Source: a virus. Taken from it: a stretch of 39,738 nucleotides of DNA. Positions 169 to 39,738 of the stretch are shown one piece after another (the first letter of the stretch is position 1; each line of letters opens with the position of its first letter). Made by a program: the position numbers and the translations under genes. The stretch is from positions 1 to 39,738 of IMG/VR virus record IMGVR_UViG_3300008448_000231; one strand, written 5' to 3'. The notes beneath the pieces are model-generated. The model did no database searches and was not told the origin of the DNA. It saw nothing but the letters and a program-made list of their open reading frames with translations.

Positions 169-1946
169 GCGTTACTTTCCGCGTTGCGCTGGATGGCCAG
201 ACGGTCCCGCTGCGGTTTCAGACGGTTAGCTTTGCGGGCATCCGCGAACTGGTCGAGGCTGATGTCGCCGCCGATATTAACGCCCGCGCCGCCAAAGCCG
301 CCAACGGCTCCGACTTTGCGACACCCCTTAACGGGTCAAGCGGTTCGTCTCTGGTGGGCTTCCTGCAAGCGGGAACCGGCGCTGTTACGCGGACTGGCCA
401 ATCGAAAATGCGGGACTTTGTGTCGGTCAAGGATTTCGGCGCGGTCGGTGATGGCGTCACGGATGACACGGCGGCGCTGCAAGCCTGCTATACCGCTCAC
501 CCCGGCGCGGTCATCGACCACGAAAACGGCAAAACCTACATCGTGTCGGCCACGCTGAACGTAAGCAGCGGCTCCATACTACAGGGGGCGTCAACGATCA
601 AAGCCAAGAACGCCACGGCTATTGCGGGGGCTGTGCTGCTTGGCTCGGGGGTTTCGGATGTTAAAATCCGCGAACTCAAAATAAACGGCAACGCATCGGG
701 GTCAAATGGGGCGACATTCGGCGTATTCTTTATGTCGGGTTCCCGCAACGTAATTGAAAACGTGCACGTTTTTGACACTCTACAGACCGGCCTAAAACTG
801 GAAAGTGAGAGCGGGTCCAAGATACTGAATAATCAGGTCATCAACTGTGGTCGAGTAGGATTTGCAGAAAACCACGGCATCGAAGTTATCTCGATTACGT
901 CAACGCCGCTCCAAAATATCGTTATTGCTGGCAACACAGTAACGGCTGCTTTTCGCAAGGGGATTACAACTTATTCCACCGGCGTGGGCGTCGTGCGGGA
1001 CGTTGCTATTTACGGCAACACGGTAAATGGGTGCAGCCTTGGCGGCGTTTATATCGGCTCTGATAGCAACACTTATCCGCAAAGCGGCATTTCGGTCACC
1101 GGAAACGTCTGCTTTGACAACTATGTCAACATAACGCTGGCATCTACGACGGGTGGCGTCGTCTCGGGTAACACCTGCCGCGACGACAACGGCGGTGGTG
1201 GAATCGAGGTTATTAAGTCGGACGAATATACCGTGTCTGGCAACCTTGTGTCAGATAGCAGTGTGCATGGCATCCAAGCCAGCAAAGGGACTGCGACTTG
1301 CGCGAACGGCTCAATCACTGGCAACACTGTAACGCGGTCTAACACGTCGTCCTCGGGTTTTGGGTGCGGAATCCTTCTTGAAGGAGCGACCAATACCGTC
1401 GTCGCAGGCAATACCGTAACCGATAGCGCCGCCCGCATGACTTACGGCATTGCAGAAAACGGGACCGCCGATCAGAACGTCATCGGTGCCAACAAGGTTC
1501 TGAACGCGACGGCTGGCAATTATCTGGTCGTAGGAACGTCAACGTCCTCGATCACACAGACGGGCCGGATGACCGGAGTGGGTGTCGCGGTTCCGCTTAA
1601 CACTTTACACGTTGGCGGCGGCATCACTGTCAGCACGCAAAACTGGACGCTGGCCAATACTAACAATAACATGGCGCTGCCGAGCAATCCGGGCGCTTTG
1701 GTGGTGTCTGGACCATCGGCAAACTATACAATTTCGGGCATCGCTGGTGGCCACAACGGGCAATTGCTTACGGTGTTTAATTATACGTCCTACACCATGC
1801 AGCTTTTGAATAACGATGCGGGGTCATCTGTCGGCAACAGGTTTTTGATCGGCGGCGGTTCTAGGACCGTGGCGTCGTTTGGGGCGGTTCAACTTATGTA
1901 TAGTTCTCAGGCAAGCGCATGGACTGTTGTGGGGTCACAGGGATGA
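165..1946 (+). CDS. Tailspike with pectate-lyase-like right-handed beta-helix (allele A)
   Basis: A 593-residue receptor-binding protein. Residues 1-73 form an N-terminal segment almost identical to that of the other tailspike at 36130 and presumably dock it to the virion. At about residues 85-107 is the pectate lyase superfamily signature (VSVKDFGAVGDGVTDDTAAL). The body is rich in N, G, V and T with recurring GNTV and SGN motifs, as expected for stacked beta-helix rungs (about residues 110-470). The C-terminal 100 residues look like a trimerisation or tip domain. By family knowledge such spikes bind and often cleave surface polysaccharide. The catalytic residues cannot be assigned by eye. 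The ATG overlaps the previous stop, and the downstream gene starts inside this stop (ATGA at 1943). Confidence 0.85.
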   Translation: MSVTFRVALDGQTVPLRFQTVSFAGIRELVEADVAADINARAAKAANGSDFATPLNGSSGSSLVGFLQAGTGAVTRTGQSKMRDFVSVKDFGAVGDGVTDDTAALQACYTAHPGAVIDHENGKTYIVSATLNVSSGSILQGASTIKAKNATAIAGAVLLGSGVSDVKIRELKINGNASGSNGATFGVFFMSGSRNVIENVHVFDTLQTGLKLESESGSKILNNQVINCGRVGFAENHGIEVISITSTPLQNIVIAGNTVTAAFRKGITTYSTGVGVVRDVAIYGNTVNGCSLGGVYIGSDSNTYPQSGISVTGNVCFDNYVNITLASTTGGVVSGNTCRDDNGGGGIEVIKSDEYTVSGNLVSDSSVHGIQASKGTATCANGSITGNTVTRSNTSSSGFGCGILLEGATNTVVAGNTVTDSAARMTYGIAENGTADQNVIGANKVLNATAGNYLVVGTSTSSITQTGRMTGVGVAVPLNTLHVGGGITVSTQNWTLANTNNNMALPSNPGALVVSGPSANYTISGIAGGHNGQLLTVFNYTSYTMQLLNNDAGSSVGNRFLIGGGSRTVASFGAVQLMYSSQASAWTVVGSQG

Positions 1947-2236
1947 CCCTCGAACCCGGCCACCTCATTACGCTTGGCCTCGCTGGTGTGGCCGTCATCG
2001 TTTGGCTTGTAAGGCTAGAAGGTCGCGTCAACGGAAAGGCGACGGCAGACCAACTAGGCGCTGTAACATCCCAAATCAGCGCATTAGCTGCGGTGGTCGC
2101 GGCGCTACAGGCCAAAGAAGCCGCGCATGATAATACGCGCGACGAGGTAATCCGCTTGCAAGAGCAGATTAAGCACCTCACGGACTTGATCGAGCGACTA
2201 TTGCCGTTGCCGAACCGCCGAAAGACTACGCCATGA
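1943..2236 (+). CDS. Small membrane/coiled-coil protein of the lysis cassette (allele A)
   Basis: A 97-residue protein. Residues 7-27 are a hydrophobic helix (ITLGLAGVAVIVWLV), followed by a charged coiled-coil stretch with heptad-like leucine and alanine spacing up to a KHLTDLIERLLPLP segment. A longer in-frame start exists upstream at 1919, but the other allele at 38184 starts at the equivalent of 1943, where ATGA overlaps the tailspike stop, so 1943 is preferred. It lies just upstream of the holin-like gene, with which it overlaps (ATGATCG). A membrane-anchored lysis accessory or second holin is possible, but no named family is recognised. Confidence 0.75.
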   Translation: MTLEPGHLITLGLAGVAVIVWLVRLEGRVNGKATADQLGAVTSQISALAAVVAALQAKEAAHDNTRDEVIRLQEQIKHLTDLIERLLPLPNRRKTTP

Positions 2237-2478
2237 TCGACGCGGACAACCCTGCGCCTGAGCCGTCATTTCACTGGCGGCGATGGGTCACGATTGGCTA
2301 TGTCGTCGCGACCACAATCCTGCTGGCCTTGATCGTCTGGAAGCTAACCGAGGGCGGGCCGCTTCGTGACATTGCGCTGGCCCTGATAGGCTCGCAAGCC
2401 TTCTTTGCCCTGATGTATATGGGGGGGGCGTCGGCCTCTGACCTCGCCCGCATCGTCGCAAGCTGGAAAAAGCCATGA
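2233..2478 (+). CDS. Putative holin, two transmembrane segments (allele A)
   Basis: An 81-residue protein with a short polar N-terminus, a first hydrophobic helix at about residues 17-38 (VTIGYVVATTILLALIVW), a polar turn (KLTEGGPLRD) and a second helix at about residues 46-65 (ALALIGSQAFFALMYMGGA), ending in a basic tail. Size, topology and position immediately before an M15 endolysin fit a phage holin that permeabilises the inner membrane to start lysis. There is no specific holin family signature. Both ends overlap neighbouring genes (ATGA type), so expression is coupled. The right-hand allele at 39191 has the same protein body but a different start because of an inserted element. Confidence 0.7.
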   Translation: MIDADNPAPEPSFHWRRWVTIGYVVATTILLALIVWKLTEGGPLRDIALALIGSQAFFALMYMGGASASDLARIVASWKKP

Positions 2479-2858
2479 CTTACGTTCTCGGTTCCCGTTC
2501 CCGCGCTCGGCTCAAGGGCGTTCACCCCGATTTGGTGCGCGTGGTTGAACTGGCCCTAACCTATAGCCCGCACAATTTCACCATCACGGAGGGCCTTCGT
2601 TCGGTTGCTCGCCAGCGTGAACTTAAAGCAGCGGGCGCATCGCAGACGATGAACTCCCGGCACATCACCGGCCACGCGATTGATTTTGCAGTCCTGATAG
2701 GCGGCAAGGTGCGGTGGGATTGGCCTCTTTATGGCCAAGTCGCGGAAGCCTTCAAGCGGGCATCCAAGGAACTAAACGTGCCGATCATCTGGGGCGGTTC
2801 ATGGAAAACGCTTAGGGATGGCCCGCACGTTGAGTTGGACCGGCGGCGCTACCCGTGA
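2475..2858 (+). CDS. Endolysin, M15-family metallopeptidase (allele A)
   Basis: A 127-residue single-domain peptidase of the D-Ala-D-Ala carboxypeptidase / L-alanyl-D-glutamate endopeptidase superfamily (M15, VanY-like). The zinc site is visible: SRHITGHAID with H63 and D70 (pattern HxxGxAxD), and GPHVEL with H118. It should cut the peptide stems of peptidoglycan. No signal peptide or SAR helix is seen, so release probably depends on the preceding holin. ATG overlaps the holin stop and the stop overlaps the Rz start (GTGAGG at 2855). A near-identical truncated copy begins at 39427. Confidence 0.88.
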   Translation: MTYVLGSRSRARLKGVHPDLVRVVELALTYSPHNFTITEGLRSVARQRELKAAGASQTMNSRHITGHAIDFAVLIGGKVRWDWPLYGQVAEAFKRASKELNVPIIWGGSWKTLRDGPHVELDRRRYP

Positions 2859-3295
2859 GGTATCTCCGCATCATCACCCCGACCGGATGGCTTGTCATTG
2901 CAGCGGTTGCGGTGGTGCTGTTCGGTCTCGCCGGTTTAGTCCGCCCTGGCTTCCTCGGCCTCAAGTTTGACCCGTTCGGCATTGACGCACGGAAGATCGA
3001 CCGGCTTGAAGGCCAAGTCTCGGTGTTAGAGCGCGAGGCGGTCGGGCAGGCGGAAATAGCACAAGCGACACAAACATTTCACACGCGGGAGGTTGTTATA
3101 CGCGACCTTGCCCGCCAAGCTGAAACCGAAGCGAGGACGGCACCCGATGCTGAAACGCCCCTTGACCCTGACCGCGTGGCTCGTATTCGGGCTGCTGATG
3201 ACCGGTTGTGCATCGTCGCCCCCGCAATCTGCGCCAGTGCTGACCCTGCCGGAAGCGGCGCGGACGCCGTGCCAGTTGCCGACCCTGCCGGATAG
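2855..3295 (+). CDS. Rz: Rz-like inner-membrane spanin
   Basis: About 146 residues from a GTG start overlapping the endolysin stop. Residues 12-34 form one N-terminal transmembrane helix (GWLVIAAVAVVLFGLAGLV), followed by a predicted periplasmic helical stretch (RLEGQVSVLEREAVGQAEIAQA) and a Pro/Ala-rich tail. This is the arrangement of an i-spanin, which joins an outer-membrane lipoprotein to disrupt the outer membrane at lysis. The assignment rests on topology, position after the endolysin and the nested Rz1 frame at 3147. Sequence family membership cannot be judged by eye. Confidence 0.75.
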   Translation: MRYLRIITPTGWLVIAAVAVVLFGLAGLVRPGFLGLKFDPFGIDARKIDRLEGQVSVLEREAVGQAEIAQATQTFHTREVVIRDLARQAETEARTAPDAETPLDPDRVARIRAADDRLCIVAPAICASADPAGSGADAVPVADPAG

Positions 3296-3455: not shown

Positions 3456-4639
3456 TGGCCCTGTCCTTCATTCCGCCTGAAGACAACGAATATCCCCGAT
3501 GGGTCACCGAGACCCAAATCAAATACATCGAGGCCGTGAAGGAACACGGCAGCCAACGCGCCGCTGCTAGGGCGCTAGGCGTCAGGCCCAACGCGGTCTG
3601 GGAGGCGCTGGACACCTACAAGAAAGCCGCCGCCCGTCGCGGACAAGCGCCCGGCCATTTCAACGACGGCGTGGCCCCCGGCTTCCTGATGGGCAAAGTC
3701 ACCATCCAGCGCGGCCCCGGTGGCGTTGAGCGGGTTTGGGAGCGCCAGTCCCCCGATGCGGAAGCACAAGCCGAACGGCTACAGGCGATCAAGGCCGGGC
3801 TGCTCGATGGCCTTCAGCCTGTCGCGCCCCTCGCCCCTCCCGGATACACCGACGACGATCTGCTGACCGTCTATCCCCAAGGCGACCCCCATGCGGGCCT
3901 CTATGCGTGGAAGGACGAAACCGGGCAGGGCTTCGACCTGGAGGAGTTCGAGCGCACCACGAAGGCCGCGATTGATCGGCTGGTGGCCTCTGCCGCGCCC
4001 TCGACCCATGCGCTTTATATTGACCTCGGGGATAGCCTCCACGCGGATAACAACGCCAGCCGCACCAAGAGCGGGCATCATCTTGACACGCATGGGCGCC
4101 ACGCCGAGGTCGTTCGAGCGGTCATCCGATGCAAGCGCCACCATGTCGCCCGGATGCTCGAAAAGCACCGGCAGATTACTATTCGCATAAATCCCGGCAA
4201 TCACGACGGCATAACCGCCTTGATGCTCGCTGAGATGATGGCAATGATTTACGAGAACGAGCCGCGCGTGACGGTGGCGACAAGCCCTAACCCGTATTGG
4301 TTTCACGGCTTCGGCTCAAACCTGATCGGCACCACGCATGGCGACGGGGCGAAGGGCGCAAACCTTCCCCTCTTGATGGCCGTCGATAGCCCGGCTCTTT
4401 GGCTGGCGTCGGAGCATGGGTCGCGGGTTTGGTTTGTCGGCCACGTTCACCATAAGGACGTAAAAGACTATCCCGGCGTCACGGTGGAATATTGCCGGAC
4501 CCTTGCGGCTCCTGACATCTGGTCCCATGCCTCGGGCTATAGGTCGAAACGGTCAATGGAATGCGTGACCTATCATGTGCGACACGGCGAGATAGAGCGT
4601 CACACTTGCGGCTTCGCGAGGCTTGGCCATGCAGATTGA
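3455..4639 (+). CDS. Metallophosphoesterase with N-terminal HTH-like segment
   Basis: 394 residues from ATG 3455, which overlaps the Rz1 stop. A 9-codon upstream extension is not needed. Residues 16-60 look like a helix-turn-helix (SQRAAARALGVRPNAVWEAL). The calcineurin-like phosphoesterase motifs appear in order: GDPH 143-146, LGD 191-193, PGNHD 247-251, THGD 294-297 and GHVHH 329-333. All two-metal ligands appear present, so activity is plausible. The substrate is unknown. Relatives include DNA nucleases (Mre11/SbcD type) and nucleotide or protein phosphatases, and the HTH points to a DNA substrate (inference). It is the penultimate gene before the terminator that ends the rightward late transcript. 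Confidence 0.85.
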   Translation: MALSFIPPEDNEYPRWVTETQIKYIEAVKEHGSQRAAARALGVRPNAVWEALDTYKKAAARRGQAPGHFNDGVAPGFLMGKVTIQRGPGGVERVWERQSPDAEAQAERLQAIKAGLLDGLQPVAPLAPPGYTDDDLLTVYPQGDPHAGLYAWKDETGQGFDLEEFERTTKAAIDRLVASAAPSTHALYIDLGDSLHADNNASRTKSGHHLDTHGRHAEVVRAVIRCKRHHVARMLEKHRQITIRINPGNHDGITALMLAEMMAMIYENEPRVTVATSPNPYWFHGFGSNLIGTTHGDGAKGANLPLLMAVDSPALWLASEHGSRVWFVGHVHHKDVKDYPGVTVEYCRTLAAPDIWSHASGYRSKRSMECVTYHVRHGEIERHTCGFARLGHAD

Positions 4640-8987: not shown

Positions 8988-9713
8988 TCAGGCGTCTTTC
9001 GTGAATGGGTTGGCGGTCAGTTCGTCTCGCCGCGTTTCGTAAAGCGCGGTGATGACGGCGAGCTTGTCGGGGTCTTTTAGGTCCAGTTCGGCGCAGAGCT
9101 TCGCGCCTAGCCCCCACGTTTTTTCTAGTGCCGGGCAGTCTTCAGCCGCATTGATGCGGGCGACAAAACCATCCGCCCGATTAGCAAGGGTCGTCACCGC
9201 ATCGGCAGGCGGTGGTGCTGCGGCGGGTTCGCTTTCGTTCTCATCAGGCCCGTGAAGGTCGCCCTTGTGCCAGAGGTCCAGCGCGGCACCGAAGCGCATG
9301 GCGGCATTTCGCAAAGCGTCCCCGATCACTTCCTTCTCTCGCGCACCTGGGTCAACGCCGGGCTTTGCAGCGGCGTGTCCATAGCCCAGACGGGTCACAC
9401 CATCGACGGTGAGCCTAATCCAAAGCCCGCCCGTCGCGTCAAACGCGGGTAAGCCGTCGCGGAATGCTATCGGCTCCCATGACCATTCCGGGTCACAGTC
9501 GAGAAGCCTATCCGTCAAGGCGGCGTGGCCGACATAATCCAGATGCACAACGTCGGGGTGATGCCATGAGCCGCAAAGCTTGCACCGAATGCCCTTTTTG
9601 TAATCGGCCTTAACCGCATCGGTCTGGGCTTTGGTCGGCTTTGGCAGTTTAGAAATATGGTGCGGGGCGAAAGGTTCGCGGAGCCTTTTCAGGGCTGGAC
9701 GTTCTTCTGTCAT
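8988..9713 (-). CDS. Rad52-like single-strand annealing protein (putative)
   Basis: 241 residues from ATG 9713 ([15 protein letters not shown]), which overlaps the pentapeptide gene stop. The N-terminus has a possible zinc hairpin (CKLCGSWHH). The core carries the pattern [43 protein letters not shown] and [22 protein letters not shown], typical of Rad52/22-type phage annealing proteins. These anneal complementary ssDNA with the help of SSB, whose gene follows three bases downstream. A Pro/Ala linker separates a C-terminal helical domain. The family call is by remembered pattern and should be confirmed by profile search. Confidence 0.75.
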
Positions 9714-10288
9714 TGGTAAGCCTCTGCTTCCTCTTTGGTCAGAAAGAAATGAATCCCGTGGGTGCATTCCACGCGCGGGTCAGGGTCGTATTTATCAGGC
9801 CGCACAATCTCGCCAGCGCGGTAAACGACGTTTCGGTCGTGCAGTCCCGCGCCGTTCGTGGGGGCTTCCAGAACCTCGACCCATTCCGCCCGGCACTTGC
9901 GACCGATAGGGGTTGCGGTGCGCTTGGCTTCGGGCGGAACGCGGAGCTTGCAAACGCCGCCAGCAACGGCCTTCCAGACGATTAGTTCGCCTTCCTGCGG
10001 GATTTGGTAAAAAAGATTTTTCACGTTTTCGAGGTTGGCCCCGTAGAGGCTGGCCCTGTTGAGGTTGGCCCCGTTGAGGCTGGCCCCGTTGAGGTTGGCC
10101 CCGTAGAGGTTGGCCCCGTAGAGGTTGGCCCTGTTGAGGTTGGCTCTGTTGAGGTCGGCCCCCGCCGCAACCGCCATAGTTACGGCAGCGGCAATGGTCG
10201 TCGCGCCTTTAGCGGTAAACAGAACCTTGCCGGTCCAGCGGTCTTTGATTTCGATAACCGGCTCGCCCGGCTTTGCCTTGTCGGTCAT
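9710..10288 (-). CDS. Pentapeptide-repeat protein with C-terminal DUF5758-like domain
   Basis: 192 residues. Residues about 43-90 carry ten or so A(D/N/S)L-x-x units ([15 protein letters not shown]), the signature of a quadrilateral beta-helix. The N-terminus ([19 protein letters not shown]) and the C-terminal domain ([25 protein letters not shown], then [11 protein letters not shown] and [16 protein letters not shown]) match a common phage architecture of unknown function. Some pentapeptide proteins mimic DNA and shield gyrase (Qnr), but nothing here demonstrates that role. The repeats are encoded by a 15-bp tandem array. Confidence 0.85.
10031..10165. repeat. Nine tandem 15-bp coding repeats
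   Basis: Units of 15 bases starting at 10031, 10046, 10061, 10076, 10091, 10106, 10121, 10136 and 10151 (plus-strand consensus GAGGTTGGCCCCGTT with T/C and A/T variants). Each encodes one pentapeptide unit of the overlapping minus-strand gene. Near-identity of units suggests recent expansion, and copy number may vary. Confidence 0.95.
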
Positions 10289-35752: not shown

Positions 35753-36133
35753 ATGACTTGCACAGACCTCGGCCTTTCGGAATACGGCTTGCGCGTGTCC
35801 AAGTCCGCTGATTCCGAAAGCGTCGGCTCGGCCCCGGATGCCGTTAGCTTTACCGGCTACACGGCAGAGTTCGTTGTTAGGGCGACGGAAACCAGTGCGC
35901 CATTGCTGACCGTCAACCTGACGCCAACGGTTAACGGGTCCGTCATCGTGATAGCCAAAAGCCTCATCACGCTGCGGCTCAAAAGGCTGGACCTGCAAAC
36001 CCTGCCGGATAACGCGGGGGATGCGAACGAACCGTATATGGCCGAGTGCGAGCTTGTCGTCATTGCCCCGACCGGCCTTCGCTCGCGCGTATGGATGCTC
36101 CCGATGATTGTTGAAAAAGGCATTGCCCGATGA
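35753..36133 (+). CDS. Small protein preceding the tailspike (allele B)
   Basis: 126 residues from ATG 35753 with GAGG four bases upstream. It starts MTCTDLGLSEYGLRVSKSAD and is beta-rich (YTAEFVVRATETSAPLLTVN, AECELVVIAPTGLRSRVWML). The C-terminal 55 residues match the partial gene at 1-168. The stop overlaps the tailspike start (ATGA). Its fixed pairing with the conserved N-terminus of the tailspike suggests a role in spike attachment or virion assembly. No named family is recognised. Confidence 0.75.
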   Translation: MTCTDLGLSEYGLRVSKSADSESVGSAPDAVSFTGYTAEFVVRATETSAPLLTVNLTPTVNGSVIVIAKSLITLRLKRLDLQTLPDNAGDANEPYMAECELVVIAPTGLRSRVWMLPMIVEKGIAR

Positions 36134-38187
36134 GCGTTACCTTCCGCGTTGCGCTGCAAGGCCAGACGGTCCCGCTGCGGTTTCAAACGGTCAACTTTGC
36201 GGGCATCCGCGAACTGGTCGAGGCCGATGTCGCCGCCGATATTAACGCCCGCGCCGCTAAAGCCGCTAACGGCTCCGACTTTGCGACACCCCTAAACGGG
36301 TCGAGCGGTTCGTCCCTGGTGGGGTTCCTACAAGCGGGAATCGGCGCTGTTATGCGGACGCTGCAAACGTGGCTGCGCGAACGGCCTGTGTCCGTGCTGG
36401 ACTATTACGATGCAGGTGATGGGGCAGACTATGGCCCGGCGTTTGGACGCGCCTTGACGGCCTCACCGCGCGTGTTCTGGCCTGACAATGCCAGCGGCTA
36501 CACTATCTCGTCGGCGGTTTCCCGGACGCTCACGCGGGATGTGATTGTCGATTGGAACGGGCAACAAGTCACGTTCTCCGCAGCGGTAAACCTCAACGGC
36601 GTGACGGTTGCCGACGTCGGCGTGACGCTTGCGGCCAATCCGGCGCGATATGCTACAAGCGTCCAGATCACGGGCGGCGCAAGCGCAAGCGTTCAAGCGG
36701 GCGACATCCTCAACATCCAGTCTTCGGTCCTGCCGTTCTCTGACGCGCCGGACACCAAGCAGGACGCGGTTCGCATCCGCTCGGTTTCAGGTTCCGGTCC
36801 CTACACTCTGACGCTGGACGCGGGGCTGAACTTCCCGTGGTCATCGGCAGAGAGCGGGATTGTCGTGTCGATCTTCCGCCCGGTGAAGGTCACGCATCTG
36901 CGCCCGAACTTCATCATCACGGAAACTGACGGCGCTGGCGTTGCCAAGTATGCTGTCCGTCATACGGGTCTGCGCGACATCACGATTACCTCGCCGGTCA
37001 TCAAGGGAAACCTCCCGTTTACGCGCGGGACAAACATCTATCGGACGGGGTTTCAGCTTTACTATTGCATCGGCTGGACCGTGACGGACGGCGTTTATGA
37101 GGCAATGTCATATCCCATCGGCGTCTATGGCGGAACGCGGAACGGCATGGAGATTAACTCCAAGGCCCGCTATTGCCGTCACAGTCACGCGGACGTTGGT
37201 GGGTTTGCTTCGGATTATCGCCTGGTCGGCTTGAATGATGAGGATAGCTTTGTCGCGCTCTCTACGCATCCGGCGTTCCGCTGCTATGCAGAGGCTTTCG
37301 ATGTCAGCAATAACACCGCGCTGACCGCGTGGCGGTGCATGGGCGGGGGTCTGAAAAACGGGCGCGTTCAAACGACGGACAGCACCTCGGATACGCCGCA
37401 AATTCAAAGCTGGATACCCAACAGCGGGTTTGAATACCTCTATGATGATGCGGATTTTGACATCGACGGGGTGACCTTCGACAACCCGAACCGAACGGAC
37501 CCAGACGTATACGTTCACTACGGGCGGAACGTGCGGGTGGCCAACACCAAGGCGATTGATATTCGCATTGGTTCAACGGTTGACCTGTATATCAATGGCG
37601 AAGGGAACCGGCTGACCGGCTGGAAGGCATCGCCGCAATCGTCGCTCGTTTTGTCGCCTTCGCGTGTTGACGGGGTGGCCATTCTCGACGGCTATCTCTT
37701 GTCGTCAGTCTATCACATTGACCCCTATCGCTCGATTGTCGCTCAATCGAATAAGCGGCTGACTTGCTCTGGCCAAGTGTTCCGCGATGTCGTGCAAGGG
37801 ACATACTCGGTTCGTTTGCACGTCAACGGCATTACGGGCGTCAATCCGGTGTATTTGCAGGGCGACCTGATGCTTACCGGCATCGTCCAGCACGAAAGCG
37901 CGGGGTTTTATTCGGAGATTAAGAACCTCTACACGTTTGGCTTGGCGCTCGGCGGGGGCGGGTTTGTTCGTATGACGACGACGCCCATTCAAGTTATCGG
38001 CCCTGCAACCGGGTCTGGCGGGACGAACATCACGCTTGCAATATCCGGCGTGTCCTACACGGACGCGGGCGCGGGCGGCGACAGCTATATCAGTTTCAGC
38101 GTGGCCATTGACACCGTGGCGGGGGTTACAAATCCCGCGTTTGGCCTTGAGTATGACCTGACCCTTCGGGAGACCTACGCCGCATGA
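36130..38187 (+). CDS. Tailspike with alternative receptor-binding body (allele B)
   Basis: 685 residues. Residues 1-73 are nearly identical to the tailspike at 165 (DGQ/QGQ, VSF/VNF and a few more changes). After about residue 78 there is no visible similarity. Here the body begins RPVSVLDYYDAGDGADYGPA, then ALTASPRVFWPDNASGYTIS, a phage tailspike beta-helix head, and continues beta-rich with repeats of turns. The pectate-lyase FGAVGDG signature of allele A is replaced. It probably recognises a different surface glycan. The C-terminus (SYISFSVAIDTVAGVTNPAF) differs completely as well. The stop overlaps the next ATG exactly as in allele A. Confidence 0.82.
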   Translation: MSVTFRVALQGQTVPLRFQTVNFAGIRELVEADVAADINARAAKAANGSDFATPLNGSSGSSLVGFLQAGIGAVMRTLQTWLRERPVSVLDYYDAGDGADYGPAFGRALTASPRVFWPDNASGYTISSAVSRTLTRDVIVDWNGQQVTFSAAVNLNGVTVADVGVTLAANPARYATSVQITGGASASVQAGDILNIQSSVLPFSDAPDTKQDAVRIRSVSGSGPYTLTLDAGLNFPWSSAESGIVVSIFRPVKVTHLRPNFIITETDGAGVAKYAVRHTGLRDITITSPVIKGNLPFTRGTNIYRTGFQLYYCIGWTVTDGVYEAMSYPIGVYGGTRNGMEINSKARYCRHSHADVGGFASDYRLVGLNDEDSFVALSTHPAFRCYAEAFDVSNNTALTAWRCMGGGLKNGRVQTTDSTSDTPQIQSWIPNSGFEYLYDDADFDIDGVTFDNPNRTDPDVYVHYGRNVRVANTKAIDIRIGSTVDLYINGEGNRLTGWKASPQSSLVLSPSRVDGVAILDGYLLSSVYHIDPYRSIVAQSNKRLTCSGQVFRDVVQGTYSVRLHVNGITGVNPVYLQGDLMLTGIVQHESAGFYSEIKNLYTFGLALGGGGFVRMTTTPIQVIGPATGSGGTNITLAISGVSYTDAGAGGDSYISFSVAIDTVAGVTNPAFGLEYDLTLRETYAA

Positions 38188-38477
38188 CCCTCGAACCTGG
38201 CCCCATCATCACGATTGGTCTAGCGGGTGTCGCGGTCATCGTTTGGCTTGTGCGGCTTGAAGGCCGCGTCAACGGCAAGGCGACGGGCGATCAAGTCGCG
38301 GCTGTGTCTGCCCAGATCGGCGCGGTGGCCGCTATCGTGGCCACGTTGCAAGCCAAGGAGGCCGCGCACGATAACACGCGCGATGAAGTCATCCGGTTGC
38401 AAGAGCAAATTAAGCACCTCACGGACTTGATCGAGCGGCTGCTTCCGTTGCCGAACCGCCGAAAGACTGCCCCATGA
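38184..38477 (+). CDS. Small membrane/coiled-coil protein of the lysis cassette (allele B)
   Basis: 97 residues, same length and topology as the gene at 1943: N-terminal helix (PIITIGLAGVAVIVWLV), then coiled coil ending KHLTDLIERLLPLPNRRKTA. About ten residue differences from allele A, mostly in the middle. The ATG overlaps the tailspike stop. The stop overlaps a relic ATG at 38474, which was the holin start before insertion. Confidence 0.75.
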   Translation: MTLEPGPIITIGLAGVAVIVWLVRLEGRVNGKATGDQVAAVSAQIGAVAAIVATLQAKEAAHDNTRDEVIRLQEQIKHLTDLIERLLPLPNRRKTAP

Positions 38478-38482
38478 TCGAC

Positions 38483-39195
38483 AATATGCCGTTTAGCGCC
38501 CGCGACGGCGACGACCCTCGACATACCGATCAAAGGGGGTTCCGCCCCTGACAACGGCAGAGTGGGCGTTGCGGTAAGGAACGCTCGCTCGCTCGCACGC
38601 CTCCACAAAAAGCATTCTCTGGCCAAAGGCCGTCACGTAAACATTGTTCCGCCTGTTTCGGGCTTGCTGCGAGGCGGAAGACCAACGACAGTTTTCGGGA
38701 CTATATCCTTTGTCGTTGTCGATCCGGTCTATACTCATTCCTTCCGGTGCCTCGCCCATGTCTTCGAGAAATGCGGCGTAGCTGTTCCACCGCTCGCACA
38801 CAGAAATTCCTCGATCCGCATATTCACGATGGTCGGGAGAGCCGGGGCGGCACCTACGGCGCATCGATTTCCATGTGATGTAAGTGCGCGTTCTTTTGCC
38901 CACTCGCGAGTGGCCGTGGCGCTCTGCCGTTTTCATCATCACGCCGCGCGATACTTCGCGGTTGTAGCAGCCACAGCTCGTGGTGTGGCCTGCTCTTAAG
39001 CATTGCCCCATCACCTCCTTTTCGACCCCGCAGGAACAGCGCACCCTCCAAAAGGGCTTGCCCTTTCTATCTTGCGCAGGAGCCAGAACCGAAAGCCGTC
39101 CAAACGTCGTCCCTTCAAGGCGTAGTCGTTGCTTTCCCATGCCACGAGTCTATCATGCTTGACGAACAAAACAATCCCTATGGACATCCTATGTC
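38483..39195. mobile_element. Inserted DNA carrying an antisense HNH endonuclease
   Basis: Compared with 2233-2250 of allele A, homology stops after ATGATCGAC (38474-38482) and resumes at GGACAACCCTGC (39196 onward). 713 bases replace the two bases GC, a net gain of 711 bases. The segment holds one HNH gene on the minus strand and displaces the normal start of the holin-like gene. Neither intron sequence features nor flanking duplications are evident. Confidence 0.8.
38493..39140 (-). CDS. HNH homing endonuclease
   Basis: 215 residues. The N-terminus has a zinc-finger-like segment (TFGRLSVLAPAQDRKGKPFW, then RVRCSCGVEKEV and TTSCGCYNRE). Residues about 80-170 hold the HNH core: TYITWKSMRRRCRPGSPDHR, YADRGISVCERWNSYAAFLE, MSIDRIDNDKGYSPENCRW, and ARNRRNN. 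This combination is common in phage free-standing homing endonucleases. The C-terminal part (FVEACERASVPYRNAHSAVV) resembles a DNA-binding HTH repeat. It would cut HNH-less alleles at or near the insertion site and be copied by repair. Confidence 0.9.
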   Translation of the reverse strand: MGKQRLRLEGTTFGRLSVLAPAQDRKGKPFWRVRCSCGVEKEVMGQCLRAGHTTSCGCYNREVSRGVMMKTAERHGHSRVGKRTRTYITWKSMRRRCRPGSPDHREYADRGISVCERWNSYAAFLEDMGEAPEGMSIDRIDNDKGYSPENCRWSSASQQARNRRNNVYVTAFGQRMLFVEACERASVPYRNAHSAVVRGGTPFDRYVEGRRRRGR

Positions 39196-39430
39196 GGACA
39201 ACCCTGCGCCTGAACCCTCATTTCACTGGCGGCGATGGGTCACGATTGGCTACGTCGTCGCGACCACAATCCTGCTGGCCCTAATCGTCTGGAAGCTAAC
39301 CGAAGGCGGGCCGCTTCGTGACATTGCGCTGGCCCTGATAGGCTCGCAAGCCTTCTTTGCCCTGATGTATATGGGGGGAGCGTCGGCCTCTGACCTCGCC
39401 CGCATTGTCGCTAGCTGGAAAAAGCCATGA
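39191..39430 (+). CDS. Putative holin with altered start (allele B)
   Basis: 79 residues from ATG 39191 (MSDNPAPEPSFHWRRWV); from residue 3 on the protein equals the holin-like protein at 2233. An in-frame ATG at 39155 would add 12 residues (MLDEQNNPYGHP) contributed by the inserted DNA. Neither start has a strong ribosome-binding site. In allele A the start is coupled to the upstream gene by overlap; here the insertion removes that coupling. Two hydrophobic helices are unchanged. Confidence 0.7.
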   Translation: MSDNPAPEPSFHWRRWVTIGYVVATTILLALIVWKLTEGGPLRDIALALIGSQAFFALMYMGGASASDLARIVASWKKP

Positions 39431-39738
39431 CTTACGTTCTCGGTTCCCGTTCCCGCGCTCGGCTCAAGGGCGTTCACCCCGATTTGGTGCGCGTGGTTGA
39501 ACTGGCCCTGACCTATAGCCCGCACGATTTCACCATCACCGAGGGCCTTCGTTCGGTCGCTCGCCAGCGTGAACTGAAAGCGGCGGGCGCATCGCAGACG
39601 ATGAACTCCCGGCACATTACCGGCCACGCGATTGACTTTGCAGTCCTGATAGGCGGCAAGGTGCGGTGGGACTGGCCTCTTTATGGCCAAGTCGCGGAAG
39701 CCTTCAAGCGGGCATCCAAGGAACTAAACGTGCCGATC
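39427..39738 (+). CDS. Endolysin, M15 peptidase (allele B, truncated by window end)
   Basis: The first 104 codons of an endolysin nearly identical to the gene at 2475 (for example HDF in place of HNF). The zinc motif SRHITGHAID is present with H63 and D70; the third ligand H118 lies beyond the window. It overlaps the holin stop by four bases. Confidence 0.88.
   Translation, partial: MTYVLGSRSRARLKGVHPDLVRVVELALTYSPHDFTITEGLRSVARQRELKAAGASQTMNSRHITGHAIDFAVLIGGKVRWDWPLYGQVAEAFKRASKELNVPI

Follow-up and report, generated by a model that had tools for sequence, protein, structure and literature searches.

How did a compact piece of DNA carrying a nuclease gene come to lie inside the start of a phage lysis gene, and what does its presence mean for that gene's expression? 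The question arises near one contig end of the window, by which we mean the whole of one IMG/VR record (39,738 bases, linear class) from a freshwater phage source. Our answer, which we hold with good though not full confidence, is that an HNH gene that most likely encodes a homing endonuclease was copied into codon 7 of a holin-like gene, leaving the lysis gene uncoupled from its upstream neighbor. The type of event is ordinary; the place where it happened is unusually well documented.

The lysis genes at the two ends of the record

The holin-like gene is present in the window twice. At the left end, a copy with no insert (copy A; 2233..2478, + strand) encodes 81 aa beginning MIDADNPAPEPS, and its start codon lies in an ATGA overlap with a 97-aa gene (1943..2236, +). 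It sits directly upstream of, and overlaps, an M15 endolysin gene of 127 aa (2475..2858, +; Peptidase_M15_4, 1.6e-10; phrog_465, 1.7e-58), and a spanin-like gene of 146 aa follows (2855..3295, +; weak phrog_2466 match, 0.004). Hydropathy gives the 81-aa protein one strong membrane segment, and a second, weaker one can be made out by eye. It has no match in PHROGs or NCBIfam, and Pfam returned only an unrelated sub-threshold hit. As no family library recognizes the protein, it is called holin-like only from its size, membrane segments, and synteny, and it is best regarded as a putative holin. A parallel comes from the lysis cassettes of mycobacteriophages, in which an 88-aa protein with two segments has a partner with one (PMC13056207). 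A search of the species genome collection for a host or prophage context found no member of the holin-like family.

The place of the holin-like gene in the contig varies among relatives. Between records its protein is 76-97% identical; the major head protein was undetected in 10 of 12 and 40-42% identical in the remainder. Judged by comparisons of this kind, the lysis gene moves between otherwise unrelated phages.

One region is present at both ends of the record (1-2786 and 35966-39738), in two diverged versions. These share 92% identity at the left and are unrelated in the part that encodes tail proteins; they are 81% identical in DNA across the 97-aa gene (right copy, 38184-38482), and 97% identical across the holin-like gene and endolysin, thus differing by 3-19% where they can be aligned. 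Among the phage records searched, none had a relative of the tail region. The window's two alleles sit at the two ends of the record and probably come from different strains that the assembler joined; on the simplest reading, the assembly followed a circular or permuted map all the way round and passed into a second strain, and the filled allele then belongs to one strain. Alternatively, the end copies may be a true duplication within a single genome. Elsewhere in the window, at 10001-10180, lies an array of a 15-bp repeat of the GAGGTTGGCCCCGTA type, which on the minus strand reads like a pentapeptide-repeat protein (ORF 9710-10288).

The insert, its empty site, and its nuclease gene

At the right end, an intact HNH ORF of 215 aa (38493..39140, minus strand) lies within the 5' end of the holin-like gene and antisense to it, with the body of the gene whole. 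The upstream 97-aa gene (38184..38477, +), which has a membrane segment by hydropathy and a coiled-coil-like tail, still ends in a TGA that forms an ATGA overlap with the old start at 38474. That relic start (38474..38551, +) reads MIDNMPF, whose first codons match two relatives from IMG/VR, L004 and L007, and then insert-derived codons, for 25 codons in all before a TGA at 38549-38551. The body can be read from the first in-frame ATG within the insert (39155..39430, +; 91 aa, MLDEQNNPYGHPMSDNPAPEPS...) or from an ATG at the right junction (39191..39430, +; 79 aa, MSDNPAPEPS...), which is a hybrid: the insert supplies the A and the flank the TG. On the antisense insertion, the relic frame, and both new starts, the sequence-only reading was correct.

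The precise site differs from the one first proposed. That reading had placed the insertion after the third codon and had taken copy A as the exact target. Copy A does lack the insert, but 11 nt of the left flank, AATATGCCGTT, are missing from it as well, and it was therefore ruled out as the empty site; measured against it, 712 bases would stand in place of one G. In L004 and L007, the same flanks run uninterrupted as ATGACCGACAATATGCCGTT(A/G)TCGGACAACC, giving the allele MTDNMPLSDNP. The junction letters are CCCCATGACCGACAATATGCCGTTATCGGACAACCC in L004 and TCATGACCGACAATATGCCGTTGTCGGACAACCC in L007, and in the window they are CCCCATGATCGACAATATGCCGTT, then the insert, then GTCGGACAACCC. Compared with L007, the window carries an exact 699-bp insert inside codon 7 (38494..39192), with zero bases lost or duplicated; one border T is ambiguous, so that 38493-39191 is equivalent. 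The left flank of the site, ATGATCGACAATATGCCGTT (38474..38493, +), is identical in L004 and L007 bar one letter, and the window's flanks match those of L004 at 86% over 310 bp on the left and 97% over 545 bp on the right. Close relatives thus differ by the presence or absence of an insert at one exact site, filled in the window and empty in L004 and L007. The nuclease stop codon, TAA, makes use of the border T, and only about 50 bp of the insert lie outside the nuclease ORF.

Related phages with the same site filled had been suggested as a check, and in IMG/VR the one filled allele known is the window's own. A scan of IMG/VR with the junction pattern returned the two empty alleles and one unrelated chance match; with a shorter pattern, the matches listed were mainly unrelated chance matches. 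The C-terminal part of the nuclease, used as a query, found no close relative in IMG/VR, and a close HNH gene occurs in 0 of 29 related records. Spanning the empty site, L007 has a perfect 7-bp inverted repeat (3980-4010; CCGACAA tatgccg TTGTCGG), which is imperfect in L004; 0.5% of the window's 31-nt stretches have one. It might be the recognition site of a dimeric nuclease or might be chance, and is suggestive only.

By its sequence, the nuclease is an HNH protein of the phrog_374 family, which it matches with an E-value of 1.3e-54 over residues 3-173, spanning the zinc finger and the HNH core; Pfam and NCBIfam gave no match to it. With a known empty allele matched at both junctions and this family match for the ORF, the insert is more than a chance feature. 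An alignment of 33 phrog_374 members has 20 invariant columns, all of them present in the window nuclease: C35, C37, C56, C58, H75, Y107, W118, R139, Y146, N150, C151, N162, and others, taking in the zinc-finger cysteines and N150/N162. The family start, these cysteines, and the core motif are all intact. The nuclease shares domain order, the zinc-finger cysteines (CxC/CGC), and the DRID..YSPENCRW core with the family and is 36-46% identical to the aligned members; it differs in that no member is known at the window's site and that its C-terminal part is without a close relative.

An AlphaFold model of the nuclease has a mean pLDDT of 89. Foldseek with this model gave no significant PDB match. 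A second structural aligner placed PacI first, with a Z of 6.2 over 81 residues, which is under the level that alone would mean kinship. In a profile search, the PacI motif DRSDSFEGYSPQN was aligned with DRIDNDKGYSPEN over 22 residues, at a weak E-value of 0.26, and the two proteins have a common core, DR.D...GYSP.N. PacI is a restriction enzyme whose general base is a tyrosine rather than a histidine (PMC4081073); its overall match to the window nuclease is modest, with no close sequence kinship. The likeness supports a predicted HNH fold of an active type, as distinct from membership with PacI.

A conserved overlap and an exchange seam

In every one of the 46 relatives, the holin-like start shares 4 nt, ATGA or GTGA, with the end of the preceding gene. 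For 44 of these the overlap was listed directly; L029 and L031 were first shown with a small gap, and in L029 an ATGA lies two codons further upstream, in a stretch where L031 is identical. The filled copy alone has no such overlap for its holin-like body, so the broken coupling that the sequence-only reading had described stands out against all of its relatives. A conserved overlap can thus break in nature with the gene body intact. On the other side, the filled copy keeps its 4-nt overlap with the endolysin gene (39427..39738, +; M15 peptidase, truncated by the contig end), which is 97% identical to the copy at 2475.

The next in-frame start in the filled copy lies 677 nt beyond the stop of the upstream gene. 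Published reporter tests show coupling nearly gone at a distance of about 20 nt (PMC10666635). The anti-Shine-Dalgarno duplex energies of the two new starts are -2.5 and -3.0, against a median of -2.5 for random positions and of -4.2 for sampled starts in the window. Given a gap of this length and start signals that are near random, holin-like translation in the filled copy is probably uncoupled and lower or later. The natural start in copy A also has a weak signal (-0.9), so the argument from start signals depends on coupling really being used. A change in lysis timing would be a further consequence of reduced or delayed holin-like protein. A scan for a promoter or terminator of the antisense gene, run for promoters with the sigma-70 consensus, found neither.

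The overlap has been kept while its upstream member changed. Four types of upstream gene occur, none related to another, with 23, 19, 4, and 2 members (both window copies counted). The tree of the holin-like gene requires at least 14 changes of upstream type, where 3 would have been enough; many forks of this tree are weak, and with only the starred branches counted, each of the two large types still needs 4 changes. Taken with the overlap in all relatives, these changes make the start codon a seam at which upstream partners have been exchanged again and again, with an overlap present each time. In L005, L006, L007, and L045, the upstream partner is a 62-aa protein with a coiled coil and a C-terminal membrane segment rather than the 97-aa gene, and it is preceded by a gene for a 161-aa multi-membrane protein.

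Origin of the filled allele and comparison with known systems

The likely course of events is as follows. A compact 699-bp piece with a free-standing HNH gene would have entered codon 7 of a long-leader allele, M(I/T)DNMPLSDNP..., antisense to the lysis operon. The enzyme would have cut the empty allele in a co-infection, and the break would have been repaired from a filled copy. The body of the lysis gene survives with a start that no longer overlaps the upstream stop, and the gene would have to start alone at 39155 or 39191, without a good ribosome-binding site. The insertion site is also the seam of upstream-partner exchange, a kind of place in which phage nuclease genes are known.

The order of the alleles can also be read in reverse: the filled allele would be the older, the HNH gene would have entered a short allele such as copy A, and L004 and L007 would be scars of its near-exact loss. 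Relative to the common leader, the one interrupted in the window has four extra codons. The short form strongly predominates, being found in 44 of the 46 relatives and in copy A, and the long leader occurs in L004 and L007 alone, the two relatives nearest to the filled copy; three alleles by themselves give no order. Against this, loss demands a deletion with exact borders and single-base microhomology, L004 and L007 stand behind different upstream genes, and a single exact insertion into an allele already present is the simpler course. We therefore regard the scar explanation as unlikely and prefer the order short, long-leader, filled, since the insertion is then exact.

A more elaborate version of the insertion would make it a lysis-timing switch that favors the nuclease gene. 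Uncoupling and antisense transcription would reduce the holin-like protein, lysis would come later, mixed infections would last longer, and homing would gain time; the two starts may also give a long and a short form of the protein. We give this proposal only a slight chance of being right.

An assembly artifact, in which the junctions join different molecules near the contig end, is still less credible. The contig ends are indeed diverged copies probably joined from two strains, and this record is the only one of 13 related records searched to have two holin-like copies. Such a chimera would not be expected to have flanks that close exactly, yet both junctions meet the empty allele of other records, including the 11 nt absent from copy A, and the change of strain is accounted for by an assembly that circled a permuted map and does not stem from the insert. 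We give as little weight to the reading of the insert as an intron or domesticated regulatory element, either spliced from RNA or acting to delay lysis: phage ICP1 does splice out HNH-carrying introns (PMC10448857), and 699 is a multiple of three that leaves in-frame starts, but that has a one-in-three chance of occurring, the HNH gene is antisense to its host gene with only those few bases outside the ORF, and the intron itself was rejected on an Rfam search of 38000-39738 on both strands with no match at E up to 5.

Insertion of a homing gene, our preferred explanation, has precedents. Free-standing nuclease genes in or beside important phage genes include T4 Seg/Mob and Aeh1 mobE (PMC2988022). 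These are of other subfamilies, and homing has been demonstrated for them, whereas for the window we infer it. The mobE gene interrupts a ribonucleotide reductase gene, the parts of which remain functional. By comparison, the window insertion cuts off only a leader. Phage nuclease genes near essential genes and at exchange boundaries have been described by Barth et al. (2023) for the T5orf172 and IPA-HNH families, in a paper that mentions lysis once and leaves holins unmentioned (PMC10448857). Both there and in the window, nuclease genes lie at module-swap points, and the window case fits this known pattern of exchange seams.

The short, long-leader, and nuclease-filled alleles form a natural series at one conserved 4-nt overlap. 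The series lets the cost of a selfish nuclease to phage lysis timing be tested, and it bears on whether nuclease genes settle at module-swap seams or create them.

Within phrog_374, a crude survey of 62 non-redundant members counted 30 that run in sense with the surrounding genes and 20 that run antisense to them, and several are tightly packed between genes; the member in Arthrobacter phage Tiff81 is in the sense orientation and overlaps both neighbors, by one and four bases. A lysis gene is also the neighbor of the family member in Pseudomonas phage D3, orf30.5, an HNH gene product 41% identical to the window nuclease. It is antisense to and head-to-head with an endolysin gene, 153 bp from its start, and lies between genes, beside lysogenic conversion genes; unlike in the window, no lysis gene start is split. 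Around the D3 region (NC_002484, 24743-25987), Fyn8, Marin, and others match on both sides, but not in the middle with the HNH and endolysin genes.
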